From the NCBI RefSeq assembly GCF_016093275.1, contig NZ_JAEDAK010000002.1, positions 310,001 through 374,000 of the forward strand: a DNA stretch of 64,000 nt, in the 5' to 3' direction. Source of the stretch: Inhella proteolytica. GTDB lineage: Bacteria > Pseudomonadota > Gammaproteobacteria > Burkholderiales > Burkholderiaceae_C. Below are positions 15,255-19,456 of the stretch, one piece after another. A program made the translations under genes and the position numbers. The number at the start of each line of letters is the position of its first letter. Position 1 is the stretch's first letter. Under the pieces are notes generated by a model. The model did not search any database, was not told the DNA's origin, and was given only the letters and a program-made list of their open reading frames with translations.

Positions 15255-16046
15255 ATGGCCCGTTCCCGTTCGCTGCTGCAGAGTCTGCGCCTGCTGAGTC
15301 TTGGCCTGTTGGCCGGCCCGGCCCTCGCCCAGACCCCACTGAACCTGTGCATGGAGAACGCCGACAACGTGCCCTGGATCCTGATGGGTGGCAAGCCCGG
15401 CTATGTGCAGATCATGATGGGTCATGTCGAGAAGGCCGTCGGCTTCCCGATCAAGGTCACCCCCATGCCCTGGAAGGACTGCCTGGCCGGCGTCAAGTCC
15501 GGTGCCATCGACGGCGCCGTCAGTGCCAGCCACAACAAGGAACGCGCGGAGTACGCCGACTACCCCGTCAACCTGAACGGCGAGGTGGACGCCACGCGGC
15601 GCATGTACCGCACCTCCTACTTTTTCTACAAGGGCAAGGGCAAGGCGCTGGCCTGGGACGGCAAGGTGCTGAAGGCCGAGGGGCTGCTGGGTGCGCAACA
15701 GGGCTTCTCGGTGGTGGCGCAGCTCAAGGAGCTGGGCGCCAAAGTGGAGGACAACACCCCCACCGCCGACGAGGTGCTCAAGCGCGTGGCCGCTGGCAAG
15801 TACCTGGCCGGCGTGGTGCAGGTCAACGAGGGCGACGCCTCGATCGCCGCCGATGCCGCGCTGCGCGACGCCATTGAGAAGGTGCAGCCCGCGCTGGTGG
15901 AGAAGCCCTACTACACGATGTTCTCCAAGGTCTACACGGCCAAGAACGCCTCCACCGCGCGCACCGTCTGGAACGCCATCCTGAAGGTGCGCAATGACGC
16001 CGGCTTCAAGGCCGAAGTGGCCTCGCTCACCAAGGGCAGTGAATGA
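15255..16046 (+). CDS. SBP_bac_3-like periplasmic protein coupled to the molybdoenzyme gene
   Basis: A 263-residue protein with a clear signal peptide (MARSRSLLQSLRLLSLGLL ... ALAQ) and a mature N-terminus TPLNLCMENADNVPWILMGG. The body has the solute-binding family 3 layout: VKSGAIDGAVSASHNKERAEYADYP, a lobe-crossing region, QQGFSVVAQLKELGAKVED, and VAAGKYLAGVVQVNEGDAS. A good ribosome-binding site (AGAAGGAG) precedes the ATG. The stop overlaps the start of the molybdopterin oxidoreductase (ATGA), implying translational coupling. No transport genes are adjacent. It may bind a small molecule relevant to the oxidoreductase, but this is inference from position only. Confidence 0.75.
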   Translation: MARSRSLLQSLRLLSLGLLAGPALAQTPLNLCMENADNVPWILMGGKPGYVQIMMGHVEKAVGFPIKVTPMPWKDCLAGVKSGAIDGAVSASHNKERAEYADYPVNLNGEVDATRRMYRTSYFFYKGKGKALAWDGKVLKAEGLLGAQQGFSVVAQLKELGAKVEDNTPTADEVLKRVAAGKYLAGVVQVNEGDASIAADAALRDAIEKVQPALVEKPYYTMFSKVYTAKNASTARTVWNAILKVRNDAGFKAEVASLTKGSE

Positions 16047-18250
16047 GTGACCGCACGGCGGGCAGTTACCGCATCTGTCCGCTGTGCGAGGCCGCCTGCG
16101 GCCTGCGCATCGAGCATGCAGGCGGCCTGGTCACGCGCATCCGCGGCGCCGAGGACGACCCCTTCTCGCGCGGCTACCTCTGCCCCAAGGCGGTGGCGCT
16201 GAAGGATCTGCACGAGGACCCGGACCGCCTGCGCCGCCCGCTCGTCAAGCGCGGCGGCGTGTTCGTTGAGGTCGGCTGGGAGGAGGCGCTCGAAGAGGTC
16301 GAGGCCCAGCTGCTCAACACCCTGCGCCTGTACGGGCCCGATTCGGTCGCCGCCGTCATCGGCAACCCCGCCGTGCACCGCATGGGCCTGCTGGCCTACT
16401 TCCCGCGCCTGGTGCGCGCCATCGGCACCGCCAATGTGTTCTCGGCCTCCACGCTGGACCAGATGCCCAAGCAGCTGTCCAGCGCGCTGATGTTCGGCCA
16501 CTGGTTTTCGGTAGCCGTGCCGGACGTGGACCGCTGCGACTTCCTGCTCATGCTGGGCGGCAACCCGCTGGCCTCGAACGGCTCGATGTGGACCGTGCCC
16601 GACGTCAAGACCCGGCTGAAGGACCTGCAGGCGCGCGGCGGCAAGCTGGTGGTGGTGGACCCACGCCGCACCGAAACCGCGGCGCTGGCCAACCAGCACC
16701 TGGCGCTGCGCCCGGGGTCAGATGCCTACCTGCTGCTGGCCCTGGCCGCCACCCTGTTCGAAGAAGGCCTGGTGAAGCCCGGCCGGCTGAGCGAACACCT
16801 GAACGGCCTGGACGACCTTTGCGCCTTCGTGGCGCCCTACCCGCCCGAGCGCGTCGCGGCGCGCTGCGGGCTCGAAGCCGCCACCATCCGCCAGCTGGCG
16901 CGCGACCTCGCCGCCGCCCCGCGCGCCGCCGTCTACGGCCGCCTGGGCACCTGCACCCAGCGCTTCGGCAGCGTCAATTCCTGGCTGGTGGACGCACTGA
17001 ACATCCTCACCGGCAACCTGGACCGCGAGGGCGGTGCCATGTTCCCCAAGGCTGCTGGCTTTGCCGCCAACACCCTGCCCGGCCCGGCCAAAGGCGTGCG
17101 CATGGGCCGGCGCAAGAGCCGCGTCAGCGGCGCGCCCGAGGTCTATGGCGAGCTGCCCATCACCTGCCTGCGCGAGGAGATCGCCACACCCGGCCCCGGC
17201 CAGGTGCGCGCCCTCATCAGCGTGGCCTCCAACCCCGTGCTCTCCTGCCCCGGCGGCGCCGCGCTGGATGAAGCCCTGGGCCAGCTGGACTTCATGCTCA
17301 GCCTGGACGTCTACGTCAACGAGACGACGCGGCATGCCGACGTCATCCTGCCCAGCCTCTCCCCGCTGCAGACCCCGCATTACGACATCGCCTTCAGCCA
17401 GCTCAGCATCCGCAACCACGCGCGCTGGAGTGAGGCCTTGCTGCCCGCCGACGAACCCGACGACTGGGAATACCTGCTGCGCCTGACCGCCCTGGTGCAA
17501 GGCCGCAACTGGCGCGCCCCCGTGGCCGAACTGGACGACGCGATGCTGGCCGAGGAACTGGCGCGCAGCCTGCCCGAAGCCTTCCGCGCCCCGGTGCGCG
17601 CTGCGCTGGGCGACGCCCCCGGCCCGGCCCGCCTGGTGGACCTGGCGCTGCGCCTCGGGCCCTATGGCGACCAGTTCGGCCGCCAGCCCGGCGGCCTCAA
17701 CCTGGACCAGGTGCGCGCGGCGCCGGCCGGCATCGACCTCGGCGCCCTGCAGCCACGCGTGCCCGAGCTGCTGCGCACACCCAGCGGCCGCATCGAGCTG
17801 GCGCCTCCCGAGTTCCTGGCCGAAGCCCCGGCCCTGGCCGCCGCGCTGGACGAGCCCGCGCCCGAGCTGGTGCTGATCGGCCGCCGCGACCTGCGCTCCA
17901 ACAACAGCTGGATGCACAACCTGCCGCTCTTGGCCAAGGGGCCGGAGCGCTGCACCTTGCAGATGCATCCGGCCGATGCGTCTCAGCGTGGGCTTTCGGA
18001 TGGCGCGCTGGTGCGCATCGAAGGCCCCGGTGGTCAGGTCCAGGCGCGCCTGGAGCTGAGCGACACGCTGCGGCCCGGCGTCGTCAGCCTGCCGCACGGC
18101 TGGGGTCACGACCAGCCCGACACCCGGTTGCGGGTGGCGAGCGAGCGGCCGGGGGCGAATCTCAATGCGCTGGTGTCGGATGGGCAGCGGGATCCTTTGA
18201 GTGGCAATGCGGTGCTGAGCGGCGTGGCGGTGACCGTGGCGGTGGCTTGA
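16043..18250 (+). CDS. molybdopterin (bis-MGD) oxidoreductase with N-terminal [4Fe-4S] site
   Basis: A 735-residue protein of the DMSO-reductase superfamily. It begins with a 4Fe-4S binding region, CPLCEAACGLRI followed about 30 residues later by GYLCPKAVALKDLHEDPDRLRRPL, then the cofactor domain (MLGGNPLASNGSMWTVPD, VVVDPRRTETAALANQHLALRPGSDAYLLLA) and the C-terminal molydopterin dinucleotide-binding domain (LIGRRDLRSNNSWMHNLPLL, SLPHGWGHD). No Tat signal is present, so it should be cytoplasmic. The residue near the molybdenum (FSASTLDQMPKQL) is neither Cys nor Sec, arguing against formate dehydrogenase or NapA activity. No electron-transfer subunit gene is adjacent. It overlaps the upstream binding-protein gene by 4 bases. 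Substrate unknown. Confidence 0.85.
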   Translation: MSDRTAGSYRICPLCEAACGLRIEHAGGLVTRIRGAEDDPFSRGYLCPKAVALKDLHEDPDRLRRPLVKRGGVFVEVGWEEALEEVEAQLLNTLRLYGPDSVAAVIGNPAVHRMGLLAYFPRLVRAIGTANVFSASTLDQMPKQLSSALMFGHWFSVAVPDVDRCDFLLMLGGNPLASNGSMWTVPDVKTRLKDLQARGGKLVVVDPRRTETAALANQHLALRPGSDAYLLLALAATLFEEGLVKPGRLSEHLNGLDDLCAFVAPYPPERVAARCGLEAATIRQLARDLAAAPRAAVYGRLGTCTQRFGSVNSWLVDALNILTGNLDREGGAMFPKAAGFAANTLPGPAKGVRMGRRKSRVSGAPEVYGELPITCLREEIATPGPGQVRALISVASNPVLSCPGGAALDEALGQLDFMLSLDVYVNETTRHADVILPSLSPLQTPHYDIAFSQLSIRNHARWSEALLPADEPDDWEYLLRLTALVQGRNWRAPVAELDDAMLAEELARSLPEAFRAPVRAALGDAPGPARLVDLALRLGPYGDQFGRQPGGLNLDQVRAAPAGIDLGALQPRVPELLRTPSGRIELAPPEFLAEAPALAAALDEPAPELVLIGRRDLRSNNSWMHNLPLLAKGPERCTLQMHPADASQRGLSDGALVRIEGPGGQVQARLELSDTLRPGVVSLPHGWGHDQPDTRLRVASERPGANLNALVSDGQRDPLSGNAVLSGVAVTVAVA

Positions 18251-18325
18251 CCGCTCGGGCGTGGCTTTGCGCGCTGATTGAACTGCCTGCGAGGGAGCCC
18301 GCCGGGATGTCGTCCCGGCAGCCGA

Positions 18326-18355
18326 CCTACTTTCTTGCTCGTGCAAGAAAGTAGG
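18326..18355. repeat. perfect hairpin in the left arm of the large palindrome
   Basis: Two 13-base arms, CCTACTTTCTTGC and GCAAGAAAGTAGG, enclose a TCGT loop. The same hairpin occurs in the right arm with loop ACGA. It is T- and A-richer than everything around it and could act as a terminator stem, a protein-binding site or a REP-like unit. Confidence 0.85.
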
Positions 18356-18832
18356 CAAAGAACACGCGCCCGCTCCGCTGTCCCCGGCCTGCGGCCGGGG
18401 ATTCCCTGCGCTGCTCGCGTCTTGGGGCTGCAGGGCGGAACGCACTGCGTTCGCTTCGCTCTCTCCGTTTGAACGGCCGCCCTGGGTCAGATGTTGAAGC
18501 GCGCTGCGCGCGCGCCCCAAGCCGCTGTGCTGCTCGGCAGCTACGAAGGGCGAGCAGCCAACAGCCGAACAGCCAGCAGCCGGGAAACGGCGCCATGGTT
18601 GAAGTCCGGGCTGTTCGGTATTCGGCTGTTGGCTGCTGCCCCTATGCAGGTGCCGAGCAGCACAGAAATGCTGGGCGGCGTGCGGCACGCACGCCCACCT
18701 GACTGACTCGGCCCAACTGTCTGAGCGGAGTGAGAGCAGCGAACGCAGTGAGTTTTGGGCCGGCCCAGCATTTCGCGCAGCGCAGGGGACCCGGCCGCAG
18801 GCCGGGCGCCGGAATCGGGGCCGTGTTCTTTG

Positions 18833-18862
18833 CCTACTTTCTTGCACGAGCAAGAAAGTAGG
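18833..18862. repeat. perfect hairpin in the right arm of the large palindrome
   Basis: Inverted counterpart of the left-arm hairpin: the same 13-base arms around an ACGA loop. Because each copy is itself palindromic, the two copies can pair either locally or with each other, giving two competing folds. Confidence 0.85.
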
Positions 18863-19045
18863 TCGGCTGCCGGGACGAAATCCCGGCGGGGTCCCTCAAA
18901 GGCCGCCCAAAGCGCTTAGATGCTCTGCCTTTGAATTGCCGACGGGCCATGTTTCAGCGCAGCTTCGGACAGGCCCTATTGAATTTCCGGCGCAGCCAGA
19001 ATGCCCGCTGTGAGCCTCTCAGGGCCTCCAAAAGGGAGCGCGAGC

Positions 19046-19456
19046 ATGACCATCGACGATCTGCTCAGCATTGGGCCCCTCAGCTGGCTCCTGCTGGTCA
19101 CCATGTTCACTCTGTTTTCGGCGCCCATCTGGGTTGCGCCACTCATAGCCTGGCGACAGGCCCACCGCATCCGCAAACCACTTCTCTACGCTCTAGTTGG
19201 CTCGTCGACCTGTGTTGTTGTCGGCTATCCGCTCTATGGCTGGCTGTACGAGCTCAGTCAGTACGATTTGATCCTGCTTAGGGACAGACTGGAAGGAGAC
19301 GGAGCCTCGCGCCTCCTGGTCTTTCTCTTAGACCGTTCATCAGTCTGGGCCTGGCTACTTCTGACCTTGCTGCTAGCCCTCTTCAGCTTCGGCTGCTCCG
19401 CCTTGGCATACAAGTTCTGGCCAAGGCGAGGCGCTGGAACAAGGGCCGGCAGTTAG
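19046..19456 (+). CDS. small hypothetical membrane protein of atypical composition
   Basis: A 136-residue protein with about four hydrophobic helices (SWLLLVTMFTLFSAPIWVAP, LLYALVGSSTCVVVGYPLYG, a shorter one, and WAWLLLTLLLALFSFGCSAL), and a basic C-terminus. A ribosome-binding site (AAGGGAG) lies about 9 bases before the ATG. Codon use is visibly less GC-rich than that of neighbours, with TTA, CTA and AGG codons, suggesting recent acquisition or weak selection. It sits immediately beside the large palindrome. I do not recognise the family. Its stop overlaps the stop of the convergent outer-membrane efflux gene by 4 bases. Confidence 0.65.
   Translation: MTIDDLLSIGPLSWLLLVTMFTLFSAPIWVAPLIAWRQAHRIRKPLLYALVGSSTCVVVGYPLYGWLYELSQYDLILLRDRLEGDGASRLLVFLLDRSSVWAWLLLTLLLALFSFGCSALAYKFWPRRGAGTRAGS

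Follow-up and report, generated by a model that had tools for sequence, protein, structure and literature searches.

The 607-bp near-palindrome at 18291-18897 of the window, by which we mean the whole 64-kb stretch of DNA analysed here, is one copy of a repeat family dispersed through its own genome and found again in all five other genomes of the genus. We interpret it, with about equal measures of confidence and doubt, as a chromosomal, non-coding and non-autonomous mobile repeat whose ends are defined by structure and whose copies are homogenised within genomes. Mobility is suggested by the polymorphism of its sites together with the passenger DNA that some copies enclose.

The 607-bp unit and its copies

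The preliminary description of this locus had reported a palindrome of 607 bp with arms of 76 bp, and these figures hold: 74 of the 76 terminal bases of the left arm (18291-18366, forward strand) are identical to the reverse complement of the right arm (18822-18897, reverse strand), the centre being the CCATGG at 18593-18598, with the midpoint at 18594. The inverted match reaches 95-nt arms at 91% identity (18278-18372 / 18816-18910), and beyond these arms more blocks pair inward around the same centre, again as described, among them an inner palindromic module at 18383-18399 (forward strand; partner at 18790-18806, 100% complementary) and a central inverted pair spanning 18525-18665, in which 18525-18585 and 18605-18665 (82%) flank CCATGG. 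The entire 607 bp are 76% identical to their own reverse complement. The longest exact inverted repeat in 18200-19000 measures 57 nt, whereas none of 200 mononucleotide shuffles exceeded 14, and the palindrome is the sole spot of the window where 30 nt have an exact inverted partner inside 1 kb. Folded as single-stranded DNA the unit reaches -278.8 kcal/mol; 20 shuffles average -146.4 kcal/mol (sd 4.7), which gives a z-score of -28.

The copy in the window carries no passenger DNA. Upstream, a molybdopterin-oxidoreductase-like gene (16043-18250, forward strand; 735 aa; best NCBIfam match TIGR01591, with a score below the cut-off) ends with its stop codon 40 bp ahead of the unit. The small membrane gene that had been placed directly beside the palindrome is an ORF outside it, at 19001-19456 (forward strand) or, from a later ATG, 19046-19456; its start is 100-150 bp from the palindrome, Pfam gives no match for it, and nothing ties it to the unit. 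A search of the Rfam 15 covariance models gave eight matches, six of them to miRNA families and none reaching its gathering score, and a known structured RNA family was therefore discarded as an identity for the palindrome.

A search with the 607-bp unit in its own genome (4.98 Mb, 44 contigs) gave 56 matches, a single place often being hit on both strands. Five copies are near-full, at 93-95%, and many others are weaker; the unit is thus not a single-copy sequence. From 24 of these loci, having 48 arms, we aligned 37 terminal arms (alignment A1), nine arms being unfit for the search expression and two others, L056R and L062R, being well-formed arms with a different second hairpin that were left out. 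The 72-position covariance model built from A1 (R1) matches 91 arms in the genome at E <= 0.01. Of these, 74 fall into 36 facing pairs, with spans of 314-690 bp for 35 pairs and 1410 bp for the remaining one, and the other 17 lack a partner; the window contains just one pair. The general architecture is that of two half-units of about 260-300 bp, inverted and head to head, and the units fall into two main size classes, of about 520 and 600 bp. The left and right halves of the 520-bp class, of which 16 copies were aligned, are related yet distinct (66% identical in L197), and its local hairpins, such as a CCTAGG-type stem, were seen by eye in several compensated versions. At the left ends of L066 and L059 a small hairpin (GGCTTCGCCGAAGCC-like) is inserted in the loop of the first hairpin, from which we suggest that stems may lengthen through the nesting of palindromes.

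In bacteria, large dispersed palindromes are generally deemed disfavoured. The unit had been viewed as a rare, unstable structure or as a recent insertion of two inverted repeats. Facing half-units are instead the usual form of the family, which occurs in 5/5 other genomes of the genus and, by R1 arms under stricter filters, in 74 of 150 genomes of the taxonomic family (own genome included), so that both ideas are left without support. An assembly artefact is also unlikely, because facing arm pairs are present in G003, a genome of the genus assembled as one contig. Among the matches listed, ten contigs of the drafts G041, G165 and G283 start within 100 bp of an arm; palindromes thus appear to break assemblies, and they may explain contig breaks in some draft genomes.

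Hairpins at the ends of the half-units

Each half-unit starts with a hairpin H1 (7-bp stem), followed by a hairpin H2 (mean stem 13-14 bp) and then by a purine-rich stretch of AAAGAA type. In the left arm of the window copy H1 lies at 18301-18319 (forward strand, 7-bp stem) and H2 at 18326-18355 (forward strand, a perfect 13-bp stem with a 4-nt loop), and in the right arm, on the reverse strand, H2 occupies 18833-18862 and H1 18869-18887, the latter position being derived from the arm-to-arm match.

In A1, 90.9% of 580 cells are standard pairs and the covariation score is 0.280, compared with 0.113 (sd 0.011) in shuffles, a test inflated by kinship among the arms, and with at most 0.139 when the structure is slid along the alignment, a control that preserves relatedness. 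Two-sided change was found in 10 of the 19 pairs, hardly above the 7.3 of the shuffles (7/500 as high), and further pair types numbered 17 against 16.7 (285/500 as high), which is no excess. By cells, two-sided changes amount to 65 and one-sided wobble changes to 8. Among the 31 distinct rows, nine are unpaired at the loop-closing position of H1 and up to 11 at outer positions of H2, partly due to a misaligned GTTCC type.

G-T pairs are nearly missing from H2 stems: none occurs among 237 pairs of 18 own hairpins, counted with a scorer that penalised G-T, and with a scorer that rewarded it there is one among 498 pairs (39 arms from named records, not pattern-selected) and four among 420 pairs (32 arms of relatives). 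At the collection loci the matched arm had been picked via its H2, and only partner arms were counted there. RNA stems usually contain several per cent G-U. As a control for this value tRNAs were sought; none was found in the 64-kb window and none was parsed from the loci, where the parser may miss some. The near-absence of G-T and the excess of two-sided changes fit a structure required in the DNA or on both strands, or one perfected by templated correction, better than an RNA of one strand. The same scarcity, together with the ratio of 65 two-sided to 8 one-sided cells, is what would be expected if the repeats were a mutational by-product, in which template switching (quasipalindrome correction) perfects the hairpins and gene conversion spreads them, with neither function nor enzyme; we consider this very unlikely, since new sites, the H1-H2 plan shared by distant taxa and the bias towards gene 3' ends would all be left unexplained.

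In the 14 units with both arms aligned, mean pairing is 0.893 within the local hairpins and 0.795 between left and right arm, so that what is conserved may not be the large palindrome as such.

Orthologous sites, neighbouring genes and passenger DNA

For 15 sites of the own genome, the flanks were looked up in the five remaining genomes of the genus (G001 to G005). Empty sites in relatives were indeed found, in at least one genome for 8/15 sites: L197 (G005, G001 and G002), L051 (G001 and G002), L061, L205 and L206 (each in G005), L060 (G004), and L065 and L199 (both in G003). Occupied orthologues were found for 5/15 sites, namely L197, L051 and L205 in G004 and L061 and L060 in G003; R1 arms are present in the occupied stretches and absent from the empty ones. 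The remaining seven sites gave no resolved flank pair. As for the site in the window, the upstream gene is present in G003 with no unit after it, and the sequence beyond differs. In the empty orthologues of L197 in G005 and G001 the flanking genes overlap by ATGA, and the empty state is therefore probably the ancestral one there. Two empty sites also lack 15-25 bp outside the conserved end, and hints of a duplicated target sequence are weak. The hairpin types differ among occupied orthologues, which looks like homogenisation within genomes; the outer flanks are clearly kept at L060/L243 and less so at L051/L240. Of the possibilities raised in the preliminary description, a non-autonomous mobile unit is supported by the many copies and by presence or absence at orthologous sites; transposition was observed in none of these site comparisons.

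The position of the units relative to genes, called with our own codon-usage gene caller, was counted for 40 of the 46 own loci fetched, since L048, L052, L209, L210, L212 and L213 have no clear second end; four of the units counted (L043, L045, L047 and L049) lack one normal arm. The neighbouring genes are convergent for 16 units, tandem for 23 and divergent for one, compared with 7, 33 and 8, respectively, of the 48 other adjacent gene pairs of the window, giving an enrichment for convergent pairs (16/40 vs 7/48, p 0.008) and a depletion of divergent ones (1/40 vs 8/48, p 0.036). At least one side faces a gene 3' end in 39/40 copies, and of the 55 gene 3' ends facing a unit, 47 are within 115 bp of it (median 33 bp) and eight at 181-831 bp.

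These positions are what one would predict of an element selected by the host at gene 3' ends, whose hairpins, acting on both strands, would shield transcripts, process them or insulate converging genes. The occupied orthologous sites across species and the compensated hairpins point the same way, and that species share sites is also compatible with a host function. We regard this explanation as possible though doubtful. No intrinsic terminator (a GC hairpin followed by a T run) was detected in 18200-19000, where shuffles give a mean of 0.8, and intrinsic termination was discarded as a reading of this one copy. Moreover, the L197 unit stands between two genes for transporter ATPases; a permease gene overlaps the second of these, and strong termination by the unit would cut that operon. 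Sister species also have empty sites. The earlier proposal of a selected structure has support in hairpins that are kept through compensated change.

The passenger DNA was seen in facing pairs with long spacing, and extended inverted ends surround other DNA in 11/11 of those examined, from several genera. In the own genome, L196 (contig C2, 2170-3431) has 258-nt inverted ends at 91% around 908 bp of lower GC, whose single ORF tested has no Pfam match; in a separate comparison the two ends are 89% alike, and both resemble the right-hand half-unit type (88 and 84%) more than the left (68 and 69%). Elsewhere, L082 (ends of 178+43 nt) encloses 1421 bp encoding a 374-aa protein with no Pfam match, L151 (145+79 nt) encloses 698 bp, L123 (four blocks of 40-65 nt) encloses 739 bp with an HNH endonuclease (PF14279, E 3.9e-12), and L228 (95+93 nt) encloses 1315 bp with a PF03411-type (M74) peptidase. 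The HNH gene between inverted half-units, at L123:6320-6736, belongs to a Sulfuritalea metagenome bin. L218 (1224-3571; ends of 207+141 nt) holds 1630 bp with a LysR-like ORF recognised by eye and, as its GC is host-like, enclosed DNA is not always foreign-looking; L219, L220, L224 and L227 resemble it, and L217 is the weakest case at 71%. Inner GC is under that of the locus in 9/11, the exceptions being L217 and L227, with L218 nearly equal.

Pfam was run on ten chosen proteins. Three candidates for cargo were rejected, namely the CAP12-TIR effector of L216 and the HATPase_c_3 protein of L217 (26.6 bits, cut-off 25), both of which adjoin a unit and do not lie between paired arms, and the DUF4160 protein of L104, where both arms point in one direction. 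The first two, a CAP12/Pycsar-type TIR gene at L216:3138-4343 and the HATPase_c_3 gene at L217:2073-3962, are different genes in two genomes of one genus, and both are beside a ribonucleotide reductase beta gene (identified as the beta subunit by family search for L216 alone), a spot that is perhaps a hot spot for defence genes.

The inverted ends around different inner DNA in several genera, with relatives in many taxa, could also be taken for a gene-cassette system, in which an unknown recombinase captures or exchanges passengers via half-units recognised by structure and the cargo-less copies are resting or decayed. This we judge quite unlikely: long inner DNA occurs in only 1/36 own facing pairs and, among the matches listed, in 3/42 paired loci of the collection, the inner DNA of L218 is host-like, no transposase, recombinase or autonomous relative was recognised by eye among the ORFs inside the long pairs or beside the arms examined, and these facts are also explained by secondary insertion into palindromes already present. 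A broader version, a mobile gene-cassette system shared across phyla, in which ends recognised as folded DNA would enclose a passenger gene or no cargo and an unknown enzyme would place the units just behind genes, also seems to us unlikely.

Under the preferred reading as a mobile repeat, a unit is made of two half-units of about 260-300 bp, each opening with H1 and then H2, an end defined more by fold than by sequence. Units would enter intergenic DNA near gene ends, moved by a trans-acting enzyme that reads folded single-stranded ends, and the 3'-end bias would come from tolerance or from targeting. Turnover would proceed by conversion, which would homogenise the copies of one genome, so that each species would come to have hairpin sequence types of its own while the sites stay put. 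Now and then the halves flank passenger DNA, in some cases a single gene, and the cargo-less form is the large palindrome of the window.

Distribution and relation to known repeats

By sequence, the 607-bp unit matches 12/40 genomes, its own included, and R1 under the stricter filters finds arms in 56/150 genomes of the order, again counting its own. The exact H2 pattern occurs in at least 116 stretches of named genomes, and the labels of the 80 matches listed include Burkholderiales, Rhodocyclaceae, Ectothiorhodospiraceae, Pseudomonas, Lysobacter and Pasteurellaceae, and also Bacteroidota, Clostridia, Fibrobacter and Desulfuromonadales, several of these loci being metagenome bins whose taxon labels may be wrong. 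A facing partner within 2.5 kb is present in 42 of the 80, the DNA ended too soon in 13, and 25 arms are single despite room; such single arms, like the 17/91 of the own genome, count against a reading as paired mobile units. Folding was compared for 14 chosen units, and each does better than the average of eight shuffles; the one from Ectothiorhodospiraceae has no mirror pairing and that from Desulfuromonadales little.

Ilyobacter (Fusobacteriota) has arms too, and so does the Pasteurella multocida record of locus L249 (NZ_CP020346.1). This record is filed as a plasmid; it has dapF, xerC and clpB close to the unit and resembles a misassembled piece of chromosome. The unit of the window had no match in plasmids or phages; a Variovorax unit matched 12 plasmid records and no phage. 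Seven of these records are replicons of 0.67-2.5 Mb, two others measure 373 kb and 29 kb, and the remaining three belong to P. multocida (0.26-0.33 Mb), the one inspected being chromosome-like. Viral contigs gave 1, 1 and 0 matches with three patterns. An origin from phages or plasmids was therefore rejected; a freely mobile element would not usually be nearly missing from viral contigs and phages, and this counts against mobility too.

Large palindromes of this kind thus occur in roughly half of the family's genomes sampled, with relatives in distant taxa, and are apparently unnamed. With a defined and searchable end structure (R1) and with full and empty sites at hand, sequenced strains can test whether the repeat is a mobile element, an expression element, or both.

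No description of this palindrome family was found in the open-access literature, and none of six genus names looked up occurs in PMC3733652. The repeat resembles the REP/BIME/REPIN-RAYT group in being intergenic, palindromic and multi-copy, in its inverted pairs and in its species-specific sequence types. REPs are 20-50 nt long and most often have a GTAG tag (PMC8266576), whereas here the half-unit is of 260-300 nt with a two-hairpin arm of about 72 nt. The foot of H2 reads CCTAC (GTAG on the other strand) in only 14 of the 37 arms of A1 and has other sequences in 23. That a RAYT transposase (Y1, HUH) moves the repeat, as the likeness and the one Y1_Tnp gene of the own genome might suggest, is highly improbable, and we rejected it as the driver: Y1_Tnp is about equally common in arm-positive (57/74) and arm-negative (55/76) genomes of the family, the arm-rich G066 and G041 have none, and the own gene (C22:243525-243857, L069), the only one found in the genome, has no adjoining repeat, which leaves the family without a link to Y1 transposases.

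ERIC sequences are about 127 bp long. According to PMC2267715, ERIC or intergenic repeat units and Correia elements (NEMIS, 108 or 158 bp) are intergenic stem-loop repeats with a proposed role in mRNA stability, and its survey of stem-loops in 40 genomes, P. multocida among them, names one family in that species, Pam-1, ascribed to uptake signals (PMC2267715). Our repeats share the intergenic stem-loops but are mostly two-armed units of 300-700 bp, in many taxa.

With MITEs and cargo-carrying non-autonomous transposons they have in common terminal inverted repeats, the want of a transposase gene, presence/absence polymorphism and some passenger DNA. They differ in that no parent insertion sequence or autonomous relative was recognised at the loci examined, in that no clean target duplication is definable, and in ends set by paired hairpins and not by a fixed sequence. 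Integron attC cassettes carry passenger genes and have structure-defined ends. By analogy our units, with both of these features, may be likened to them; in the units, however, inverted ends stand on both sides of the passenger, whereas an integron cassette has one attC.
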